A stretch of DNA of 64,000 nucleotides from Phaeospirillum sp. (GTDB lineage Bacteria; Pseudomonadota; Alphaproteobacteria; Rhodospirillales; Magnetospirillaceae): assembly GCA_030651575.1 (NCBI GenBank), contig JAUSFB010000068.1:62001-126000 (forward strand). Direction: 5' to 3'. The notes under the pieces were generated by a model, which searched no databases, was not told where the DNA came from, and worked only from the letters and a program-made list of their open reading frames with translations. This document shows, piece after piece, positions 23,760 through 49,688 of the stretch. Made by a program: the position numbers and the translations under genes. The stretch's first letter is position 1; each line of letters starts with the position of its first letter.

Positions 23760-25445
23760 TCAGTGCCCGGAGGCGCCTTCGGCACCCAGACCGGTCTCGG
23801 ACCGGATCGCCTGGGCTTCGTAAGCGGCACGTTCCTGCGCGGCACGCGGGCTGTTGTCGAGAACCGAGAACAGCCACGAGAAGAAGAACGCGGCCGGCAC
23901 GGAGAAGATCGCCGGGTAGGCGAAGGGGAAGATCTCGGCCGGGAAGCCGAAGCTCTGCACCCAGACCGCCTTGCTCAGAACCACCATGATGACCGACATC
24001 AGCAGGCCGATGGTGCCGCCGAGGACGGCGCCACGGGTGGTCAGACCACCCCAGAACATGGACAGAACCAGCACGGGGAAGTTGGCCGAAGCCGCCACCG
24101 AGAAGGTGAGCGCCACGATGAACGCCACATTCTGCTTTTCGAAGAGCAGGCCCAGCAGCACGGCAACGACGCCGAGGCAGATGGACGAGATCTTGGAAAC
24201 GGTGATTTCCTTACCTTCAGTCGCCTGACCATGCATGATCACGCTGGCGTACAGGTCATGCGAGATGGCCGACGCGCCGGCCAGGGTCAGACCCGACACC
24301 ACCGCCAGGATGGTGGCGAAAGCCACGGCCGAGATGAAGCCGAGGAACATGTCGCCGCCGATGGCGTGGGCCAGCCACACCGCGGCCATGTTGTTGCCGC
24401 CCTTGAGGTTCAGACCACCCTTGACCGCATCGAGATAGGCCGGATTGGTGGCCACCAGGGTGATGGCGCCAAAGCCGATGATGAAGGTCAGGATGTAGAA
24501 GTAGCCGATGAAACCGGTGGCGTAGAAGACCGACTTGCGGGCTTCCTTGGCATCGGGAACGGTGAAGAAGCGCATCAGGATATGCGGCAGACCGGCGGTG
24601 CCGAACATCAGGGCCATGCCGAGAGAGATGGCGTCGACCGGATTGCTGACCAGCGCGCCCGGAGCCATGATGGCGCCGTGCTTGGGGTGAACTTCGATGG
24701 CCTTGACGAACAGCGCCTCGAACGAGAAGCCGAACCTGCTCATCACGCCGAAGGCGATGAAGGTCGCGCCGCCCAACAGCAGACACGCCTTGATGATCTG
24801 CACCCAGGTGGTGGCGACCATGCCGCCGAAGGTGACGTAGATCATCATCAGCGCACCGACGATCATGACCGCGTAGATGTAGTCCATGCCGAACAGCAGC
24901 TTGATCAGCTGACCCGCGCCGACCATCTGACCGATCAGATAGAAAATCACCACGACCAGCGAACCGGTGGCGGCGAAGGTGCGGACCGGCATGCGGCCCA
25001 GACGATAGCTGGCAACGTCGGCGAAGGTGTACTTGCCCAGGTTGCGCAGACGCTCGGCGATCAGGAACAAAATGATCGGCCAGCCGACCAGCCAACCCAC
25101 CGAGAAGATCAGGCCGTCATAGCCCGAGCCGTAGACCAGGGCGGAAATGCCCAGGAACGACGCCGCCGACATGTAGTCGCCGGCGATGGCCAGACCGTTC
25201 TGGAAGCCAGTGATGCCGCCGCCGGCGGCATAGAAGTCGGCCGCCGTTTTGGTGCGCTTGGCCGCCCAATAGGTGATGCCCAGCGTCATGCCGACGAAAA
25301 TGATGAACATGACGATGGCGTGCCAGTTGGTTTCCTGCTTGGCGGCGTTACCGAGATCGGCACCGGCCGCCAGGGCGGCGGTGCTCATGAGGGCCATGCC
25401 GCCGGTGGCGAGCATGGACGAGACTGCGGTCTTGAACGTCTTCAT
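23760..25445 (-). CDS. actP: ActP, cation/acetate symporter
   Basis: This 561-residue protein has a signal-like N-terminus and about 13 membrane helices, in the solute:sodium symporter family. The blocks [22 protein letters not shown] and [14 protein letters not shown] are characteristic of ActP. It takes up acetate and other short carboxylates. The ATG at 25445 overlaps the stop of the DUF485 gene, the usual yjcH-actP arrangement. Confidence 0.93.
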
Positions 25446-25777
25446 CAGCGGGATTCCTCGATGATCTGGCGATTCATATCGTCGAACTCGCCATTGGCGC
25501 GATAGACGTAGATGCCGGTGAGGATGATGGCGCTGAGAATCACGGCCACGCCGATCGGGAAACCGATCGTGGTGACGGAGCCGGCGAACAGCGGGGTGCC
25601 CAGCCATGCCTTGTTGAAGGCGATGATGGAGATGAAGCCGAAATAGACGACCAGGACGATGATCGACAGTGTCCAGGCGAACACAGTCCGCTTGCGGACC
25701 AGTTCGGTGAACATCGGATTGTTCCGGATGTGATCCACGCTCGCGAGGTGCTGAGCTGATTGTTCAGGTGATTTCAC
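25445..25777 (-). CDS. yjcH: YjcH-type DUF485 membrane protein
   Basis: This 110-residue protein has two membrane helices, as in DUF485/YjcH, the usual companion of ActP. The start is set at a GTG (25777) because GGAGGG lies six bases upstream. A longer GTG start at 25798 would place that ribosome site inside the coding region. It is translationally coupled to actP by a one-base overlap. Its precise role in acetate transport is not established. Confidence 0.85.
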
Positions 25778-26277: not shown

Positions 26278-27717
26278 ATGAATGACATTGCCGCACTTGC
26301 TAAGATTGACAGCTTTCCTTATCGCCATCGCCTGCGTGAGGTGATGAGCACTCCTGTTCTCACCGCGTCGGACACGCTTACGCTTGCCGAGGCCGTTCGC
26401 AAGATGTACGAGGCCCGCGTTTCTTCCATCGTCGGTATCGACGATCTGGGGCGGGCCGCCGGTATCTTCACCGAACGCGATCTGTTGCGCGTCCTGTCCA
26501 ATGACGGGCCGTCCGGGCTTGAGGTCACCCTGGCCGAGACCATGACCAAGCCGGTGGCGACCGTGCCGGCCGATGCCTTTGTGTATGTGGCCCTGGCTCG
26601 GATGACCCGCATGGGGTTGCGGCATCTGGTGGTGGTCGATGACGACAAGCGGCCGCTGGGCATGATCACCGGCCGGGCGCTGCTGAAGGTTCGCGCCACC
26701 GAAGCTTTGGTGCTGGGCGATTCGGTCGAAAGCGCGCGGGACGGCCAGGACATGCGCGCCATCATCGACAAGCTGCCCAAACTGGCGCGTGGCCTGCTGG
26801 ACGAGGGGGTCACCGCCCGCAACATCGCCGCCGTCATTTCGCTGGTGCTGCGCGACATGACGGCCAGGGCCGCCGAACTGGCGGAATTGTCCCTGCTGGA
26901 CGACGGCTGGGGGGCTGCCCCGGCCCGCTATTCCGTGCTGATTCTTGGTTCGGGCGGCCGTGGCGAAAGCCTGCTGGCCTTCGACCAGGACAACGCCATC
27001 GTCCATGACGGCAAGTCCAGCGACGACGCCTGGTTCGCCGAACTGGGCAAGCGCCTCAACGACATCCTGCACGCCGCCGGCATCCCGTTCTGCGATGGCG
27101 GCGTCATGGCGCGCGAGCCAAAATGGCGCAAGAGCCTGGAGGAGTGGCGCGACGAGGTGCATCGCTGGGTCTATACGGTCGAGAATCAGACCGTGATGTA
27201 TTGCGACATCTTCTTTGACTTCCAGCCGGTATGGGGCGACCGCGCCCTGGCCGAGGAACTGCGGAGCATGGCCATGGAAAAGGCGGCGCAATCCGCCTTC
27301 TTCCTGCGTTACCTGGCTCAGAACGTCGCCGGCATGGATGGTTCCCTGGGCCTGTTCGGCAACTTCGTCACCAAGCAGGGACGCCTTAACGCCAAGAAGT
27401 TCGGCCTGTTGCCGCTGGTGAGCGCGGCGCGCATGCGCGCCATTCGCAGCCATATCCCGGCCACCAGCACCGACGAGCGCTTTGCCGCCCTAAAGGAAGC
27501 CGGCGTGCTGCACGAGGACGATCTGCGTGATTTCATCGATGTGCGCGAAGTGGTGCTGAAGGTCATGCTGGAGCAACAGCTGGCCGATCTCGCCATGGAT
27601 ATCGCACCGTCCGCCCGCATCGATCCCAAGCGGTTCGACAAGCGGACCCGCTCTCGCTTGCGCTGGGCCTTCAAGCGCCTGAAGACGCTGAAACTCGTCT
27701 GCGGCGTCGGCGGTTAA
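26278..27717 (+). CDS. CBS-domain plus DUF294 nucleotidyltransferase-like protein
   Basis: This 479-residue cytoplasmic protein has two CBS domains (about 20-75 and 85-142). A DUF294 nucleotidyltransferase-like domain follows with G-S-G-G-R-G-E at 224-230 and D-Q-D-N-A at 236-240. A DUF294 C-terminal domain fills about 335-470. The motif resembles GlnD/GlnE-type nucleotidyltransferases that modify signalling proteins. CBS domains usually sense adenine nucleotides. It is divergent from yjcH-actP, a link seen in many Proteobacteria, so it may gate acetate metabolism. No cyclic-nucleotide domain is seen. Confidence 0.85.
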   Translation: MNDIAALAKIDSFPYRHRLREVMSTPVLTASDTLTLAEAVRKMYEARVSSIVGIDDLGRAAGIFTERDLLRVLSNDGPSGLEVTLAETMTKPVATVPADAFVYVALARMTRMGLRHLVVVDDDKRPLGMITGRALLKVRATEALVLGDSVESARDGQDMRAIIDKLPKLARGLLDEGVTARNIAAVISLVLRDMTARAAELAELSLLDDGWGAAPARYSVLILGSGGRGESLLAFDQDNAIVHDGKSSDDAWFAELGKRLNDILHAAGIPFCDGGVMAREPKWRKSLEEWRDEVHRWVYTVENQTVMYCDIFFDFQPVWGDRALAEELRSMAMEKAAQSAFFLRYLAQNVAGMDGSLGLFGNFVTKQGRLNAKKFGLLPLVSAARMRAIRSHIPATSTDERFAALKEAGVLHEDDLRDFIDVREVVLKVMLEQQLADLAMDIAPSARIDPKRFDKRTRSRLRWAFKRLKTLKLVCGVGG

Positions 27718-27772: not shown

Positions 27773-29050
27773 TCACCGGGACGCGGCGTCAGCCGCCGCC
27801 ACCCGGTTGCGGCCATCGGTCTTTGCCCGGTACAGCGCCCGATCCGCTTCGGTCAGCATGTCGTGCAGGGTACCGGGGCCTGTGCCGCAGACTCCGATAC
27901 TGATGGTGACGGGAATTCGGACGCCGCCAAAGCTGAAATTCGCCCTCTCCACCGTTTGCCGCAACTGCTCGAACACCGCCATCGTGTTGGCTTCGGTCCG
28001 GTCCGCGATCAGCAGGCCGAACTCCTCGCCCCCGAACCGGGCCACCACATCCTGATCGCAGGTGAATTCCGTCAAAATCCGCGCCAGTTCGATCAGGACG
28101 GCATCGCCGCCGTCATGGCCGTGGCCGTCGTTGATCCGCTTGAAATGATCGATGTCCAGCATGGCGGCGGCAAAGGGCTCGGCCTGCCGGTTCAGCGTAT
28201 CGAACCGCCGTTGGGCGGCTTCAAAGAACGAGCGTCGATTGCGAAGACCGGTCAGCTGGTCGGTGGCGGCCATGGTCCGCAGAGTCCCGATGTGTTCCAG
28301 GCTCTCCACATTCAGGGCGACGCGGCAGAACAGCTCTTCCGGCAGAAACGGCTTGTTTAGGTAGTCGTTGGCGCCGCCCTTGATGAATTGGGCCGAAATT
28401 GGACCGCGCGTGGACGCGCTGGACGAAATCCCGATGATGGCGAGGCGGTCGCGGGCATAGGTGCCGCGAAGACGGCGAACCAGCTGGACTCCGTCTATGC
28501 CGGGAAGCTCGTAATCGGTGATGACCAGATGCAGTTGGGGCGAGGACAGCGCCAGCGCCAGCCCCGCCTCGGCATCTCCGGCCTCCAATACGGTAAAGCC
28601 GTAGAGATGCAGCAACCCGGCAAGCTGGCTCCGGTAGGCGCGGGAATCGTCGATGACCAGGGCGGTCAGGCCGCGGTTGCGGCGGATGCGCTCCACCAGC
28701 CAGACCAGGTAATCGACGCTGCTGGGATTGTCCTTCAGCACGTAGTCGATGACCGGCCGAGCCAAAATCCGTTCCCGCGTGGCGGTGTCGAAGACGCCGG
28801 AGACCACCACCAGCGGCAGGCGGTTCCGCACGAAAAAGCTGACCAACTCGGCTTCGTCGGCATCGGGCAGGACCAGACCGCTCAGGACCAGCATGATGTC
28901 GTCGCCCCACTGCCGGACCGCCTGTTCCGCCGCCTTCAGGCTGTTGGCCACGGTGACGGCAAGCCCCAGGCGCTCGGTGATGGCGCTGGACACGATGCCG
29001 GCATAGGCGCGGGAGTTGTCGATCAGAAGAACCCGTCCGGTCTGCGGCAT
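27773..29050 (-). CDS. Two-receiver GGDEF response regulator (PleD-like layout)
   Basis: This 425-residue protein has a degenerate receiver (about 5-125), a second receiver (about 128-250) and a GGDEF domain with G-G-E-E-F at 340-344. The second receiver has the phospho-Asp in I-T-D-Y-E-L-P-G (D179) and K233. The first has Ser57 where the Asp should be. The residues before the active site read C-D-Q-D, so the usual RxxD feedback site lacks its arginine. It should make cyclic-di-GMP after phosphorylation of the second receiver. Two ATGs overlap; GAGG is best spaced for 29050. Confidence 0.9.
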   Translation of the reverse strand: MPQTGRVLLIDNSRAYAGIVSSAITERLGLAVTVANSLKAAEQAVRQWGDDIMLVLSGLVLPDADEAELVSFFVRNRLPLVVVSGVFDTATRERILARPVIDYVLKDNPSSVDYLVWLVERIRRNRGLTALVIDDSRAYRSQLAGLLHLYGFTVLEAGDAEAGLALALSSPQLHLVITDYELPGIDGVQLVRRLRGTYARDRLAIIGISSSASTRGPISAQFIKGGANDYLNKPFLPEELFCRVALNVESLEHIGTLRTMAATDQLTGLRNRRSFFEAAQRRFDTLNRQAEPFAAAMLDIDHFKRINDGHGHDGGDAVLIELARILTEFTCDQDVVARFGGEEFGLLIADRTEANTMAVFEQLRQTVERANFSFGGVRIPVTISIGVCGTGPGTLHDMLTEADRALYRAKTDGRNRVAAADAASR

Positions 29051-29158
29051 CATGATCCTCGTTGGGTGACTCCCCCATACTATGGTCCAGATGCCACCGA
29101 AGCGAAACCCCACCTTCCATGTGCTTGCGCGAATCTCAATGTTTGCTAGGGTGCGAGG

Positions 29159-29671
29159 ATGAAAGTATTTGGAATCGCCGGCTGGAGTGGCAGCGGCAAG
29201 ACAACATTGCTGGTGCGTCTGATTCCGGCCCTGACCCGCCTGGGGATTCGGGTCGCCACCATCAAGCACACCCACCACAACCCCGCCGTTGGCGATGCCG
29301 ACAGCCGGGCGCTGGCAGCGGCTGGGGCGACGGAGATCCTGATGGCGTCGCCCCGCCGCTTCGCCCTGATCCATGAACTCGATGATCGCCCGGAACCCCT
29401 GCTGGACGAACTGATCGGACATTGCGTCGATGCCGATCTGGTGCTGATCGAGGGCTTCAAGTGGTCGCCCCACCCCAAGCTGGAGGTCTGGGATCCGGAA
29501 TTGGGCAAGTCCATGCTGGCCCTGACCGAGCCCTCGGTGGTGGCCCTGGCGGCCGACCGGCCGGTGGCGGATCTGGATTTGCCGCACTTTTGCCGCGACG
29601 ACGCGGATGGCATCGCCATGTTCATTGCGGCCTATTGCCGGTTGCCAGCAGAGGCCAGCCGGCCGGTTTGA
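29159..29671 (+). CDS. mobB: MobB, molybdopterin-guanine dinucleotide biosynthesis protein B
   Basis: This 170-residue GTP-binding protein has the P-loop G-W-S-G-S-G-K-T-T near residues 8-16 and I-K-H-T-H-H. A further D-A-D-S block and L-I-E-G-F-K motif are as in MobB. It assists guanylation of molybdopterin for bis-MGD enzymes. AGGG lies seven bases before the ATG. It may support molybdoenzymes such as nitrate reductase, which would be consistent with a denitrifier. Confidence 0.92.
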   Translation: MKVFGIAGWSGSGKTTLLVRLIPALTRLGIRVATIKHTHHNPAVGDADSRALAAAGATEILMASPRRFALIHELDDRPEPLLDELIGHCVDADLVLIEGFKWSPHPKLEVWDPELGKSMLALTEPSVVALAADRPVADLDLPHFCRDDADGIAMFIAAYCRLPAEASRPV

Positions 29672-33569: not shown

Positions 33570-33582
33570 GATGGAGGAAAAG

Positions 33583-33783
33583 ATGTCCTACCCCTTGTTC
33601 GACAGCGGCTACACCTTGTGGGCGGCCGATGTGGATGCCCGTTTGAAGGACCGGTTGGGCCAATCGCTCCGTTCGTTGGGCATCGAGCCCAAATTGCTGC
33701 TGCAAAGCTATTACGGCGGCCAGTCGATCACCTCCGCGCTTACCCTGATTTCCGCCCGTTATGGGATCGAGGCGGTGGGATGA
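33583..33783 (+). CDS. Small hypothetical protein upstream of the sensor-exonuclease
   Basis: This 66-residue soluble protein has no signal or membrane helix. The start at ATG 33583 has GGAGG six bases upstream and is preferred over the ATG at 33571, which falls in the ribosome site itself. No family is recognised. The C-terminal half alternates hydrophobic and polar residues as in small helical proteins. It precedes the sensor-exonuclease gene by 88 bases on the same strand and may be its partner. Confidence 0.55.
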   Translation: MSYPLFDSGYTLWAADVDARLKDRLGQSLRSLGIEPKLLLQSYYGGQSITSALTLISARYGIEAVG

Positions 33784-33871: not shown

Positions 33872-35896
33872 GTGCCGGTCAAGTGGCGGGGTCCTTTTCC
33901 TTGGCTGGCGGCGGCGTTTGCCGTCGACGTGGTCGTCACCATCGCAGCCGCCTATGGCTTGTCGCAAGGGGTGGTCGATCGCGAGGAGCTGACGGCGCTG
34001 GTGATGGTGTCGCTGGCCGGCGCCGCCGTGATGTTCGCGGTTTCGTGGAAGACCATCGACTTCCTGGTGATGCGCAGCGTCCGCCGCATGGCGGCCGAGG
34101 TGCGCGCCATCGCCTATGGCGCCGGTAAGGACGGCGTCGATCCCGAGCGTTATGGCGTGGTGTCGCCGCTGCCCGAGGCGGTGAACGAAGTCTGCGCCCG
34201 CATGGTCAAGGCCAGGATGGAGTTGACCGAGGGCCTGTCGGCCGCCACGCGGAAATCCGAGGAAAATTCGACCCGGCTGGCCGCGATCCTCAACGACCTG
34301 CATGAAGGCGTGATGGTGTGCAATCAGCGGCATCAGCTGGTGCTCTACAATCAGGTCGCCTTCGACATCTTGCGCGAGACCGCCGAACTGGGTCTGGGAC
34401 GCTCGCTGTTCGATACCGTGGCGCGCGGCCCGGTGATCCATATGTTCGACGTCTTGGGCAATCGCCCCGAAATGGCCGGGCGGGGCGTCCCGTTCCTGGC
34501 CGGCAGCGTCGATGACCGGGTGCTGTTGCAGGCGCGCATGACCCTGATCCGCAACGAGGGCGGGGCCGTGACCGGTTATGTGGTGACCCTGGTCGATGCC
34601 GGACCGCAACTGTCGGCACTGGCCAGTCGCGAGGCGCTGCTGCGCGAGGTCGCCGAAGATGTGGAAGCGCCGCTGAGGCGCATCGCCATGTCCGCCGAGG
34701 ACCCCGCCGTGGTTCGCCGTGAAAGCGCCGCCATCGCCCAGGCCATCCGGCGGGTGACCGAGGGCTATCAGAAGATGTTGTCCGGCTGGTGGCCCATGGC
34801 GGACATCAATTCCACCGAATTCCTGTCCTTTGTCGTCGCTCGGCTGGGCGAAGACCTCAAGGGCACGGTGATCGATCTTCCGGTCTGGCTGCACGGCGAT
34901 TCCCATTCGCTGGTGCTGGCGCTGGAATCCCTGATCCGCCGAACCGCCGACCGGGCGGGCGCGACTGAGTTCGACCTGTCGGCCGGCGATGGCGCCGCCG
35001 CCTGGGTCGAGTTCAGCTGGACCGGCGACATGGTCGAGCAAGCCCTGCTGGACCGCTGGCTGGCCCAACCGCTGGTGGCGCTGGGCGGCATGACCGTCCG
35101 CGACGTCTTGCAGCATCACGGCGGCGCCGAGATCATTCGCGAGCGGCGCGGCGCCGGTGGCGCCCTGCGATTGCCCATGCGCCGGGGAATCGAGCAACAC
35201 CGGCCTGATCGTCAGGTTCTGCCCGGCCGTCCCGAGTTCTACGACCTGACCCTGCTGGAACAGGCGCGGGAGACCGGCGCCATGGGGACGCAGCCGTTGA
35301 AATCGCTGACCTTCGTGGTGTTCGACACCGAGACCACCGGGCTGCACCCCTCCCAGGGCGATCAGGTGGTATCCATCGCCGGCGTCCGTATCGTCAATGG
35401 CCGGATTTTGTCGGGGGAGAGCTTTAATCGGATCGTCAATCCCGGCCGGCCGATTCCCGCCGAATCGATCCGTTTCCATGGCATCACCGACGACATGGTC
35501 AAGGACAAGCCGCCGGTTGAAGTGGTGCTGCCGCAATTCCGGACCTATCTGTCCGACGCGGTCATGGTGGCCCATAACGCCGCCTTCGACCTGAAATTCC
35601 TGCGTATGCGCGAGCGGCAGATGGGAATTGCCTTCGACAACCCGGTTCTTGACACCATGATCCTGTCCAACTTCCTGGACGGGCCGGAAGCCGGGCATTC
35701 GCTGGACGATATCTGCGAACGCTATGGCATCGAGATTACCGAGCGTCACACAGCGCTGGGTGATTCCATGGTGACGGCGGCGGTGCTGCTCCGCCAGATC
35801 GAGGCGTTGGAGGCCCGTGGCATCCATACCCTGGACGATGCGGTCAAGACCCTGAACATCGCCATGATCCTGCACGAGCGCCAAAGGGTGCTGTAG
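33872..35896 (+). CDS. Membrane PAS / degenerate kinase / DnaQ-like 3'-5' exonuclease fusion
   Basis: This 674-residue protein has two N-terminal membrane helices (about 8-28 and 42-62), a short linker and a PAS domain (about 130-240). A histidine-kinase-like region follows (about 245-450). A DEDDh exonuclease domain begins at about residue 480. The exonuclease has F-D-T-E-T-T-G (D485, E487), H-N-A-A-F-D (D573) and H-T-A-L-G-D (H626, D631), so it looks active. The kinase part lacks the phospho-accepting His and its ATP-binding boxes are eroded. The GTG at 33872 has GGAGG seven bases upstream. The family often sits near actP and DUF294 genes. Confidence 0.85.
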   Translation: MPVKWRGPFPWLAAAFAVDVVVTIAAAYGLSQGVVDREELTALVMVSLAGAAVMFAVSWKTIDFLVMRSVRRMAAEVRAIAYGAGKDGVDPERYGVVSPLPEAVNEVCARMVKARMELTEGLSAATRKSEENSTRLAAILNDLHEGVMVCNQRHQLVLYNQVAFDILRETAELGLGRSLFDTVARGPVIHMFDVLGNRPEMAGRGVPFLAGSVDDRVLLQARMTLIRNEGGAVTGYVVTLVDAGPQLSALASREALLREVAEDVEAPLRRIAMSAEDPAVVRRESAAIAQAIRRVTEGYQKMLSGWWPMADINSTEFLSFVVARLGEDLKGTVIDLPVWLHGDSHSLVLALESLIRRTADRAGATEFDLSAGDGAAAWVEFSWTGDMVEQALLDRWLAQPLVALGGMTVRDVLQHHGGAEIIRERRGAGGALRLPMRRGIEQHRPDRQVLPGRPEFYDLTLLEQARETGAMGTQPLKSLTFVVFDTETTGLHPSQGDQVVSIAGVRIVNGRILSGESFNRIVNPGRPIPAESIRFHGITDDMVKDKPPVEVVLPQFRTYLSDAVMVAHNAAFDLKFLRMRERQMGIAFDNPVLDTMILSNFLDGPEAGHSLDDICERYGIEITERHTALGDSMVTAAVLLRQIEALEARGIHTLDDAVKTLNIAMILHERQRVL

Positions 35897-35915: not shown

Positions 35916-36551
35916 TTACAGCCCCACCTTGGCGGCGAGGATGGCGGCCTGGGTGCGGTTTTCGCAAGCCAGCGAACGCAGGATGGCGGTGACGTGCAGC
36001 TTTACCGTAATCTCGGCCAGACTGAGGTCACGCGCGATTTCCTTGTTGGATTTTCCCTGGCGGAGCATGGCCAGCACGTCGCGCTGGCGGGGGGTCAGCA
36101 GCTTACGCAGGCGCTCGGCATCGAACTCGCATTGGGTCTGAGTGCGGGTTTCGGGCACGACGATGTTGGGGCTGACGAAGGTGTCGCCCTCCAGCACTGA
36201 CCGAATCCCCTTCATCATGGAGGCGCTGCCGGCCGATTTGCAGATATAGCCGTGCGCCCCGCAATCCAGGGCGCGGCGGACCGCCTGCGGGTCTTCCGAG
36301 GCTGACACCACGACCAGATAGATATCGGGAGCGGTCCGCCGGATGGCGTCGATGGCGGAAAATCCGTCCATGCCGGGCATGGAAAGATCAATCAGGGCAA
36401 TATCGATACCCGGATTGGTGCGGATATGGGCCAGGGCCTGCGTGAAGTCGGAGGCCTCGAAGGCCTCCACCGGCTCCTCGGCCAGACTTTCCAGGACCAT
36501 GCGCACGCCCTCGCGGAACAAAGCGTGATCATCAGCAAGAAGGACTCTCAT
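35916..36551 (-). CDS. NarL/LuxR-family response regulator
   Basis: This 211-residue protein has a receiver domain with the phospho-Asp at D55 (A-L-I-D-L-S-M-P-G) and the conserved Lys in Y-I-C-K-S-A. A LuxR-type helix-turn-helix begins with L-T-P-R-Q-R-D-V-L-A. It lacks a partner kinase next door; the converging pseudo-kinase-exonuclease could not phosphorylate it. The ATG at 36551 starts the receiver domain directly. Regulators of this type control acetate uptake (CrbR-like) in other Proteobacteria. That role here is inferred from context only. Confidence 0.88.
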   Translation of the reverse strand: MRVLLADDHALFREGVRMVLESLAEEPVEAFEASDFTQALAHIRTNPGIDIALIDLSMPGMDGFSAIDAIRRTAPDIYLVVVSASEDPQAVRRALDCGAHGYICKSAGSASMMKGIRSVLEGDTFVSPNIVVPETRTQTQCEFDAERLRKLLTPRQRDVLAMLRQGKSNKEIARDLSLAEITVKLHVTAILRSLACENRTQAAILAAKVGL

Positions 36552-36959
36552 CGTGTTCGACCCCAAATCAAACCATCAGCATGCGCCCGACAGACAGGCG
36601 GGCAACACAACGCATGCGCCGCGCGGCACAGCCGGCACATGAGCAGCCTTCCCTCCGAACAGGTTGTTCGACCGCGCCCAAGCGGCCTGCCTGCCCGGCA
36701 ATCCCCGAAACCCACGAAAACTTAATCACGGTTTGGACGATCCAGCAACGAGGGACTTGAGGCTTATACCGACGCGCCATTGAAGGTGCTCGCCTTGTCG
36801 TCCCTCAATCTCCGGGCGGGCACGACCGCGCCCTTCAGGCCGCGAAGCCGCAGGCCGAGACGTCCTGGAACCGGCATTGTTCATGCTTTCCACGAAAACG
36901 GGAATCATGGCGCGGGGCTGACGGGATCAAGGCTGGCTGGGAGAGTTTCCCGCAGCCCG
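36552..36959. other. 408-base gap upstream of the LuxR regulator and downstream of glgP
   Basis: This gap should hold the promoter of the minus-strand response regulator gene and the end of the glycogen transcript. It has no convincing coding frame. A 60-codon minus-strand frame at 36726-36908 lacks a ribosome site and family likeness. No promoter, terminator or tRNA can be called. Confidence 0.5.
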
Positions 36960-47621: not shown

Positions 47622-49688
47622 TCAAGCGATCCTGGCGGGAAGAGCGATATGAAAGCGGCTGCCTTGGCCGGCGGTCGATTCCACCCAGATCCGGCCGCCC
47701 ATCTGTTCGACGATCTTTTTGCAGATGGCCAGTCCGATGCCGGTTCCCTCGAACTTGTCGCGGGTGTGCAGGCGCTGGAAGATGCCGAAGATCTTTTCGC
47801 CGTATTGGGGGTCGATGCCGATGCCGTTGTCGGCGATGCTGATGATCCATTCCTCGGCCTCGCGCCGGGCCGAGATCGTCACCGTGGGGATCTGGCTTTG
47901 ATCGCAGTATTTCAGGGCGTTGCTGATCAGATTCTGGAACAGCCGGACCAGATCGTCGCGCACCGCCATGACCGAGGGCAGATCGTTGTCGCGATGGATG
48001 ACGGCCTTGGCATCGGCGATGGCGTTGGAGAGATTGGCGACGGCCTGATCCACCGCCGAGACCAGCGAGACGGCCTTGGCCGGCGCCGTGTGGTGGCCGA
48101 TACGCGAAAATTCCAGCAGATCGATGATCAACTGGTTCATGCGCTTGGCGCCGTCGCGGGCGAAGTGGACGAATTGAAGGCCGTCCTCGTCCAATTTGGC
48201 GCCATAGCGGCGTTCCAGCAGCGAGACATAGCTTGAGACCTGACGCAGCGGCTCGCGCAGGTCATGGGACGCGACATAGGCGAACTGTTCCAGCTCGGAG
48301 TTGGATCGGGCCAGTTCGGCGGCCTGGGTGATCAGGGCGCGCTCGACATTCAGGCGTTCGCTGACATCGCGGAACACCAGCACGGCTCCGGTGACGCAAT
48401 TATCCTCGACGACGCCGCTGACCACGAACTCCACCGGGAAGCTGGCGCCGGTGCTGCGCCAGAAGGTCTCGTCGGTGACCTCGCGGGTTACGCCATCCTT
48501 TACCGTCATGCTGATCGGGCATTGTTCATCGGGGTAGGCCGACCCGTCGGGATGGCTGTGGTGGATGGCGGGATGAATGGCCTGTCCGGTCAGGTCGGCT
48601 TCCTTCCACTCCAGCATCCGACAGGCGGCTGGATTGATGAAACTGACCTTGCCGGCGGAGTCGACGCCGCAGATGCCTTCGCCGGCCGCGTCCAGGATCA
48701 TCTGGGCGTCGCGATGGGCACGTCTGGTTTCTTGTTGAGCCAGCTCCTCCGCCTTCATGGCGCGCAGCAGCCAGGACGCCAGCAGCAGGCTGACGACGGT
48801 GATCAGGGCGGTGATGGAGGTCAGGATGATGGTTTCGCGGCGCCAGGGGTCGAGGATGGCGTCGACCTCGGCGGTGACGGTGACGTAAAGCGGATAGTCC
48901 CGCAGCCGCGCGAAGGAGACCAGCTTGGCCGGTGTTCCGACCGCCGATCCATCGGATCGGTAGACGCCGCGCAGGGCCAGCGAGATATGCTTGTCCCAGG
49001 AGTCGGTTCCCGCGATGGAGCGGCCGATGATGTTGTGGCCGGCGGGGATGCGGAACAGGAAGGTTCCATCGTCGCGCATGATGGAAATGGCGCCGTCAGG
49101 CTTGATGCGCTCGGCCTCGAAGGTTTTTGCGATACGGTCCAGTTCCATGGCGGCGAACAGCACGCCGATATCGCCGCCGGACCGTTCGATCGGGATGGAG
49201 ACCGGGATGCCCCATCGGCTGGTAACCCGGCTGATGACCGGGTCGGCGATGAAGAAGCCACGGGTTTTCTTGTTGGTCTGGGCCTTGAAATAGTCGCGGT
49301 CGGAGACGTCGGCCAGTGGTTTGGCCCCTCGCTTTGGGATGTAGAAAAGGCCGCCGCTTTTGCTGACCATGCGGATGTCCAGCAATCCGCTGGACAGCAG
49401 GCGCAATTCGTCGATCAGGGCGATGAAGCTGGGGTCCTGACCGGGGTCCTGGTCGGGGTGGTCCGCCATCCAGTGCTTGGCCACCACCAGCGACGTTTCG
49501 GCGTGCTTGAACAGCCGCGTCGTCTGCTCCTCGGCGGCGCTGGTGATCTGTTCCAGCAAGATGGTGCTCGACGCGATCACGCCTTGATGCTGCGACCACG
49601 ACCAATAACCGATGAATCCCCAAAGAGCGGGCAGCAGCGCTCCCAATAACCCGATCAGCAGTCGGCGGTTGTTGGGGCGGTACTTCAC
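47622..49688 (-). CDS. Membrane PAS sensor histidine kinase (orphan)
   Basis: This 688-residue kinase has an N-terminal helix (about 10-30) and a long periplasmic sensor region resembling Cache domains. A second helix lies near 285-305 and a PAS domain near 330-440. The HisKA box A-S-H-D-L-R-E-P-L has His475, and the HATPase region carries N-L-I-S-N-A and D-N-G-I-G-I. It starts with GTG at 49688, two bases after the dihydroorotase stop. No response regulator is adjacent, so it is an orphan kinase. Confidence 0.88.
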   Translation of the reverse strand: MKYRPNNRRLLIGLLGALLPALWGFIGYWSWSQHQGVIASSTILLEQITSAAEEQTTRLFKHAETSLVVAKHWMADHPDQDPGQDPSFIALIDELRLLSSGLLDIRMVSKSGGLFYIPKRGAKPLADVSDRDYFKAQTNKKTRGFFIADPVISRVTSRWGIPVSIPIERSGGDIGVLFAAMELDRIAKTFEAERIKPDGAISIMRDDGTFLFRIPAGHNIIGRSIAGTDSWDKHISLALRGVYRSDGSAVGTPAKLVSFARLRDYPLYVTVTAEVDAILDPWRRETIILTSITALITVVSLLLASWLLRAMKAEELAQQETRRAHRDAQMILDAAGEGICGVDSAGKVSFINPAACRMLEWKEADLTGQAIHPAIHHSHPDGSAYPDEQCPISMTVKDGVTREVTDETFWRSTGASFPVEFVVSGVVEDNCVTGAVLVFRDVSERLNVERALITQAAELARSNSELEQFAYVASHDLREPLRQVSSYVSLLERRYGAKLDEDGLQFVHFARDGAKRMNQLIIDLLEFSRIGHHTAPAKAVSLVSAVDQAVANLSNAIADAKAVIHRDNDLPSVMAVRDDLVRLFQNLISNALKYCDQSQIPTVTISARREAEEWIISIADNGIGIDPQYGEKIFGIFQRLHTRDKFEGTGIGLAICKKIVEQMGGRIWVESTAGQGSRFHIALPARIA

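Follow-up and report, generated by a model that had tools for sequence, protein, structure and literature searches.

The gene at positions 33872-35896 (+) of the 64,000-nucleotide stretch of DNA analysed here (the window) encodes a protein in which two membrane helices and a PAS domain lead through a histidine-kinase core that has lost its H- and N-boxes into an exonuclease domain with a complete set of DEDDh active-site residues. The dead core shows kinship with the corresponding part of SLC5-transporter kinases, and genes for a CBS/DUF294 putative nucleotidyltransferase and a symporter lie nearby. The protein is no isolated oddity, and belongs to a large, widespread and largely unstudied family. 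We give an even chance to the reading that it is a membrane exonuclease controlled by its dead kinase and PAS domain, switched by a receiver in many relatives, and paired with DUF294 in acetate or pyruvate metabolism. The features of the gene and its surroundings are as follows.

23760-25607, minus strand: sodium:solute symporter (SSF), transcribed away from the DUF294 gene; similar to the acetate-type symporters encoded next to the exonuclease genes of relatives
26278-27717, plus strand: putative nucleotidyltransferase, CBS-CBS-DUF294-DUF294_C, from domain matches
33583-33783, plus strand: 66-codon ORF preceding the exonuclease gene, from ORF call and comparison
33872-35896, plus strand: whole gene, TM-TM-PAS-pseudo-histidine-kinase-DEDDh exonuclease, 674 aa, from ORF call, Pfam, AlphaFold2 and Foldseek
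33893-34114, plus strand: two membrane helices, residues 8-32 and 37-81, with a tiny loop between them, from the AlphaFold2 model and Kyte-Doolittle plot
34166-34297, plus strand: long linker helix, residues 99-142, from the AlphaFold2 model
34298-34597, plus strand: PAS domain, about residues 143-242, from a weak Pfam PAS match, fold and conservation
34601-34786, plus strand: pseudo-DHp helical hairpin, residues 244-305, with Glu262 at the phospho-acceptor position, from family profile and model
34811-35185, plus strand: pseudo-CA (ATPase-like) domain, residues 314-438, lacking the N-box Asn, from family profile and model
35309-35815, plus strand: DEDDh exonuclease domain, residues 480-648, with D485, E487, D573, H626 and D631, from Pfam, NCBIfam, fold and alignment
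35916-36566, minus strand: LuxR-type response regulator, convergent with the exonuclease gene, from NCBIfam

The ORF has 674 codons and starts with GTG, closely preceded by GGAGG. An AlphaFold2 model computed from the window protein and 60 homologues (a 61-row alignment, L107 and L124 excluded) has a mean pLDDT of 87.2 and a pTM of 0.57, so single domains are more trustworthy than their mutual placement. The second membrane helix extends past membrane length in the model, and a low-confidence linker (residues 443-457) separates the pseudo-CA domain from the exonuclease; Kyte-Doolittle peaks begin at residues 7-13 and 38-44. In the model the PAS-like fold spans residues 146-242. The Pfam PAS match falls short of its cut-off (E 0.0014; 19 bits, with 22.6 required), and within the domain Cys150 is kept in 89 and Asn160 in 95 of the 96 aligned rows. 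The top PDB matches from Foldseek are PAS-containing histidine kinases (WalK, VicK, LOV-HK) on the one hand and Pol III epsilon, PolC and ExoX on the other. An earlier note on this DNA, made from its letters, had read the protein as two membrane helices, PAS, a kinase-like region and a DEDDh nuclease, and Pfam, AlphaFold2 and Foldseek bear this anatomy out. The note had also supposed that the protein senses a signal at the membrane. This finds no support: the first helix ends at residue 32 and the second starts at 37, which leaves no space for a periplasmic sensor domain in the model, and the PAS domain is taken to be cytoplasmic.

Relatives were collected as the best 80 loci of one scan of genome contigs, which is not a census. 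These loci come from Proteobacteria of the Alpha-, Beta-, Gamma- and delta-type and from one-off metagenome-assembled genomes (MAGs) with the labels Nitrospirota, Acidobacteriota, Flavobacteriales, Vicingus and Syntrophomonadaceae. A first alignment had 34 rows, with re-fetched copies, some near-identical copies from the same genus and fragments excluded, L015 and L025 among these. The larger one used throughout has 96 rows representing 95 distinct proteins, since L031 and L067 are one protein counted twice; 18 of the 80 named loci, whose exonuclease ORF is under 560 aa, were excluded from it.

In Pfam, RNase_T matches residues 482-639 with an E-value of 1.4e-38 (133.5 bits against a cut-off of 24). 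This match, the residues D485, E487, D573, H626 and D631 and the fold place the domain in the DnaQ-like DEDDh superfamily. Among the 25 NCBIfam families listed, only the general TIGR00573 passes its cut-off, and the DnaQ equivalog TIGR01406 is not reached (123 bits against 222.7). By sequence, the nearest solved relatives are PolC-type and Pol III epsilon exonucleases. The genome of the window has a separate epsilon-like gene (L002) of about 230 aa, with 36% identity over the domain. In one genome of the same genus the exonuclease gene is broken by an in-frame TAA (L015:1498-3528, +).

The DEDDh residues, described as intact in the earlier note, are complete in the window protein and in 91 of the 96 rows. 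Five rows depart from this: L055 has Arg instead of the His, L124 is truncated where its stretch ends, and in the three same-genus paralogues L056:6959-9007 (-), L057:6887-8959 (+) and L058:6956-9001 (-) kinase and nuclease are both dead, with AVARK, AQCRR and CVCRK, respectively, in place of DEDHD. These three still lie next to a receiver gene and an SLC5 kinase gene, which suggests that catalysis is not always the output. They also favour the idea that the protein chiefly serves to titrate the receiver, as a scaffold or decoy, its nuclease being incidental. We consider this improbable, given that all five residues persist in 91 of 96 rows, that the invariant columns of the family are concentrated in the exonuclease domain, and that the window lineage retains the nuclease residues without a receiver.

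Judged by its sequence, the kinase core is dead across the whole family. Motif searches found neither an H-box nor an N-box in any of the 96 rows, and the same searches found an H-box in all 37 and an N-box in 33 of the 37 SLC5 kinases of the fetched loci; the loss of the His and ATP-binding boxes claimed in the earlier note is thus upheld on alignment. At the phospho-acceptor column Glu occurs in 45 rows, Asp in 20, Arg in 9 and other residues in 18, with a gap in 4, and no row, the four gapped ones counted among the 96, has His. The window protein itself lacks the phospho-acceptor His, the N-box Asn and the ATP glycine boxes that a histidine kinase should have. It does have the predicted DHp hairpin and CA fold: structure prediction of the kinase region gave the helical hairpin of residues 244-305 and an alpha/beta domain of residues 314-438, with histidine-kinase matches in Foldseek and a profile match to SLC5 kinases.

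Pfam lists no kinase family for the 674-aa protein, and phmmer with residues 1-472 against the PDB gave a single match below 0.001, to VicK over residues 117-274. It was instead a family profile, together with the model, that revealed the kinship. Built from homologues over residues 244-440, this profile can be aligned with genuine kinases along almost its whole length. In the alignments with two SLC5 kinases, the His of THELRTPL falls on Glu and the N-box stretch on a helix without the Asn motif. The kinase G1 stretch DNGPG aligns with WkG (WxG) in the dead core, whose Trp383 is kept in 94 of 96 rows. The profile scores a median of 47.4 bits against SLC5 kinases (n=37, range 24.6-66.8), as compared with 5.5 bits against other kinases (n=19, range -2.8 to 64.2). 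Three of these 19 reach at least 25 bits: L126 and L130, the two top scorers, which both adjoin an exonuclease gene and were kept in the count even with L126 being a frame of a broken SLC5 kinase, and L037, which does not adjoin one. By these scores the dead core resembles SLC5 kinases more closely than other kinases. A tree of kinase cores unites 30 dead cores (97/94) at the end of a long branch and splits the SLC5 kinases over more than one group; this tree, which carries warnings for several long branches and for unusual compositions, does not place the dead cores inside the SLC5 kinases. A separate histidine kinase in the window (47622-49688, -) scores 11.4 bits with the dead-core profile and shows little resemblance to it.

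The gene neighbourhood recurs. The earlier note had looked on the protein as self-contained, whereas 71 of the best 80 loci have one or more of four partners (DUF294, acetate-type symporter, CheY-like receiver, SLC5 kinase) nearby, the window having the DUF294 and symporter genes. A CBS/DUF294 nucleotidyltransferase is encoded in the stretch at 62 of the 80, an SSF symporter at 47, a CheY-like receiver next upstream at 40 and an SLC5-transporter kinase at 24, and BLAST with the reference proteins found none of the four in the stretches around the gene at the remaining 9. An SLC5 kinase is in the stretch at 22 of the 40 receiver-bearing loci and not at the other 18. Three annotated plasmid records were compared (the Cupriavidus record, L038, carries no annotation). 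An Aestuarium plasmid has an acetate--CoA ligase, a cation acetate symporter, a CBS/DUF294-like gene annotated as a histidine kinase, a receiver-like gene and the exonuclease; plasmids of Paracoccus denitrificans and P. aminovorans have DUF294, a small protein, an SLC5 kinase, a receiver and the exonuclease. In each of the three records the receiver gene shares 4 bases with the exonuclease gene.

The pairing with DUF294 was examined across 60 genomes (exonuclease at E < 1e-50, DUF294 at E < 1e-20). Both genes are present in 38 genomes, the exonuclease alone in 1, DUF294 alone in 7 and neither in 14. When the 16 other genomes of the window's genus are left out, the counts are 22, 1, 7 and 14; because the genomes are related, Fisher values for this co-occurrence are merely a guide. 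Of 56 DUF294 genes, at least 25 lie no more than 1.5 kb from a DEDDh gene among the matches listed and at least 32 no more than 8 kb, and 24 have none listed within 8 kb, on a list from which generic epsilon-like rows were excluded and in which weak rows beside DUF294 were kept. In the genus of the window (17 genomes including its own), the DUF294 and exonuclease genes are at most 8 kb apart in 12 genomes and on different contigs in 5; DUF294 is the next gene to the exonuclease in 10 loci of the genus. One locus of this genus (L040:14283-16430, +) has a further kinase gene after the symporter, beyond DUF294. On MAG contigs labelled Vicingus, Flavobacteriales and Syntrophomonadaceae (L106, L118, L142) the DUF294 gene stands directly before the DEDDh gene, and neither a receiver nor an SLC5 kinase was detected on these contigs. 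It is as if this DUF294-DEDDh pair were the older core. The gene pairing would point to a common target of the two enzymes, control coming in through the dead-kinase part.

In the window, the 26278-27717 gene is the only DUF294_C match found in the 4.2-Mb genome and lies 6.2 kb from the exonuclease gene, and the SSF symporter gene lies about 8 kb away. The presence of a putative ActP-type symporter (an SSF family match) and of a CBS/DUF294 gene near the exonuclease fits a CrbS/CrbR-type module. A receiver-GGDEF diguanylate cyclase gene (27773-29587, -) is flanked by the DUF294 gene and a TolC-like one. The LuxR-type regulator at 35916-36566 has ErdR as its best NCBIfam match, with 139.5 bits against a cut-off of 390. 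It was considered and rejected as a fixed partner: among the loci searched, such a regulator adjoins the exonuclease gene only in the window, in L006 (and its re-fetched copy L039) and in L014, and lies 5.5 kb away in L042. The 66-codon ORF recurs, at 60-89% identity, in 11 of the 29 small-flank loci L006-L034, and its longer reading (33571-33783) has no Pfam match.

The hairpin of the pseudo-DHp domain is shorter in the window protein than in most aligned relatives. Its length could be related to the gene upstream in 83 of the 96 rows (L072, L104, L106 and L118 have too little of the region, and nine others have short flanks only; L107, among the 83, has no upstream flank). Of 71 long-hairpin rows, among which the protein shared by L031 and L067 is counted twice, 55 have a CheY-like receiver gene as their next upstream neighbour; of the 12 short-hairpin rows, 11 have enough flank to judge, and none of these has one. 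This association is suggestive only, as the contrast was spotted afterwards, the cut was set then, and the short rows are mostly kin of the window protein, so that one or two events may account for it.

The dead core might instead be a mere dimerisation element or mechanical relay from PAS to nuclease, on which the receiver never docks and beside which it serves another output. The 16 of 71 long-hairpin rows that lack an upstream receiver would fit such a relay, as would the near-invariant PAS residue Asn160 and the window genome, in which no receiver orthologue was found. The contrast between 55/71 and 0/11 rows speaks against it, as does the likeness of the dead core to SLC5 kinases encoded at the same loci, and we regard the relay as possible but doubtful.

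What the window genome holds bears directly on receiver docking. A search for an SLC5 kinase gave 82 kinase-type matches, the lowest query residue of which is 560, and none extends into the SLC5 part. No receiver orthologue was found either: the ten best matches lie in frames of 241-751 codons, and shorter receiver frames come lower among the genome matches, the best being of 132 codons with 32% identity. With neither an orthologous receiver nor an SLC5 kinase found, and with the hairpin shortened, docking of a receiver on the window protein itself is weakened as a proposal, and the docking part of the mechanism is inapplicable to this protein as it stands. Input in the window lineage would then come through the PAS domain or the membrane helices.

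Related genes have been studied in Pseudomonas. PMC9927547 describes P. putida pp_0354 (CBS) and pp_0353 (RNase_T) as an operon tied to MxtR/ErdR, and cites binding of ErdR at the pp_0354 promoter. Deletion of pp_0353 left growth on acetate and succinate unaffected and delayed growth on pyruvate, a delay seen likewise on loss of mxtR, erdR or actP-I; the pp_0354 mutant showed no effect on acetate and no impairment on pyruvate, and the authors speculated about mRNA decay (PMC9927547). In P. fluorescens, PMC5715377 reports that the abundance of Pflu5625 (CBS/nucleotidyltransferase) depends on CrbS, that its mutant has no phenotype, and that it is predicted to act by nucleotidylation. A pyruvate phenotype for pp_0353 and none for pp_0354 argues against the simplest form of the pair, in which both would act as one unit.

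The unaffected growth on acetate, together with the PolC-type and Pol III epsilon enzymes as nearest solved relatives, could be taken to mean that the protein is a membrane-tethered DNA-repair or proofreading exonuclease unconnected with acetate metabolism, its neighbourhood a matter of hitch-hiking. We consider this very improbable: the genome has its own epsilon-like gene, the context of symporter, DUF294 and SLC5 kinase recurs across classes, and the pp_0353 deletion reported in PMC9927547 does harm growth on pyruvate.

The reading that we prefer, a controlled membrane exonuclease paired with DUF294, would work as follows. The protein would be a membrane-anchored DEDDh 3'-5' exonuclease, probably dimeric, whose activity may be controlled by PAS and the catalytically dead histidine-kinase core. 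This core, kin to the SLC5-kinase core of the same gene module, would have become a module that receives and transmits signals in the manner of DivL. In many relatives the SLC5 kinase, where present, would phosphorylate the stand-alone CheY-like receiver encoded upstream, which would dock on the dead DHp hairpin and so switch the nuclease; in the window lineage the PAS domain or the membrane helices would take over the input. The nuclease and the CBS/DUF294 enzyme may cooperate, either with one adding and the other trimming nucleotides or through a common RNA or protein target, and their role would probably lie in acetate/pyruvate-type carbon metabolism. A complete route, in which an SLC5 kinase acts through the receiver on a dead-kinase nuclease that erases nucleotides added by DUF294 to RNA or protein, appears rather unlikely to us in that full form. 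In the window lineage this route would be trimmed, keeping the PAS-dead-kinase-nuclease protein, DUF294 and the symporter.

The output domains of two-component systems are mostly transcriptional or cyclic-nucleotide enzymes. A dead kinase wired to a nuclease is a new arrangement of known parts, and would equip acetate/pyruvate signalling with an arm that acts directly at the post-transcriptional or post-translational level. If the full route were true, a two-component system would have a nucleotide-erasing enzyme, and not transcription, as its output. The arrangement would also hint at a role for the exonuclease in the Pseudomonas CrbS/R regulon and make the role of CBS/DUF294 enzymes testable, and it would add, after DivL, a natural case of a dead kinase serving as a receiver sensor.

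Several known systems share parts with the window protein. The kinase core of the SLC5/STAC kinases CrbS, CbrA and RpuS resembles the dead core, and the symporter context is shared; unlike them, the window protein has no SLC5 transporter domain, phospho-acceptor His or N-box. DnaQ-type DEDDh exonucleases (Pol III epsilon, PolC, ExoX) have the fold and active-site residues in common with it, whereas its own domain is fused to a membrane-PAS-dead-kinase module. DivL of Caulobacter, in which Tyr replaces the His and not Glu as at position 262 of the window protein, acts on the kinase CckA and is not known to carry a nuclease. Like the window protein it combines a His-less histidine-kinase core with PAS, and PMC4211667 describes it as a dead kinase that reads DivK~P at its receiver-docking face. 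DivL has been repurposed as a sensor of a single-domain receiver (PMC4211667); in the window family a receiver adjoins the gene in relatives alone.

The earlier note had called the design seldom described. This holds for the literature searched, which was open-licence PMC full text and in which PMC9927547 was the nearest report found, but not for genomes, where the design is common. The nearest described system is pp_0353/pp_0354 of the MxtR/ErdR (CrbS/CrbR) regulon. In the passages of PMC9927547 that describe it, membrane, PAS and dead-kinase parts are absent from the account of pp_0353, a comparison by description only, and control of the pair is described as transcriptional. The pair shares other traits with the window: a putative RNase_T exonuclease is joined with a CBS gene and tied to an acetate/pyruvate switch, and homologues in P. 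aeruginosa lie near actP/yjcH (PMC9927547), much as the window gene lies near its symporter.
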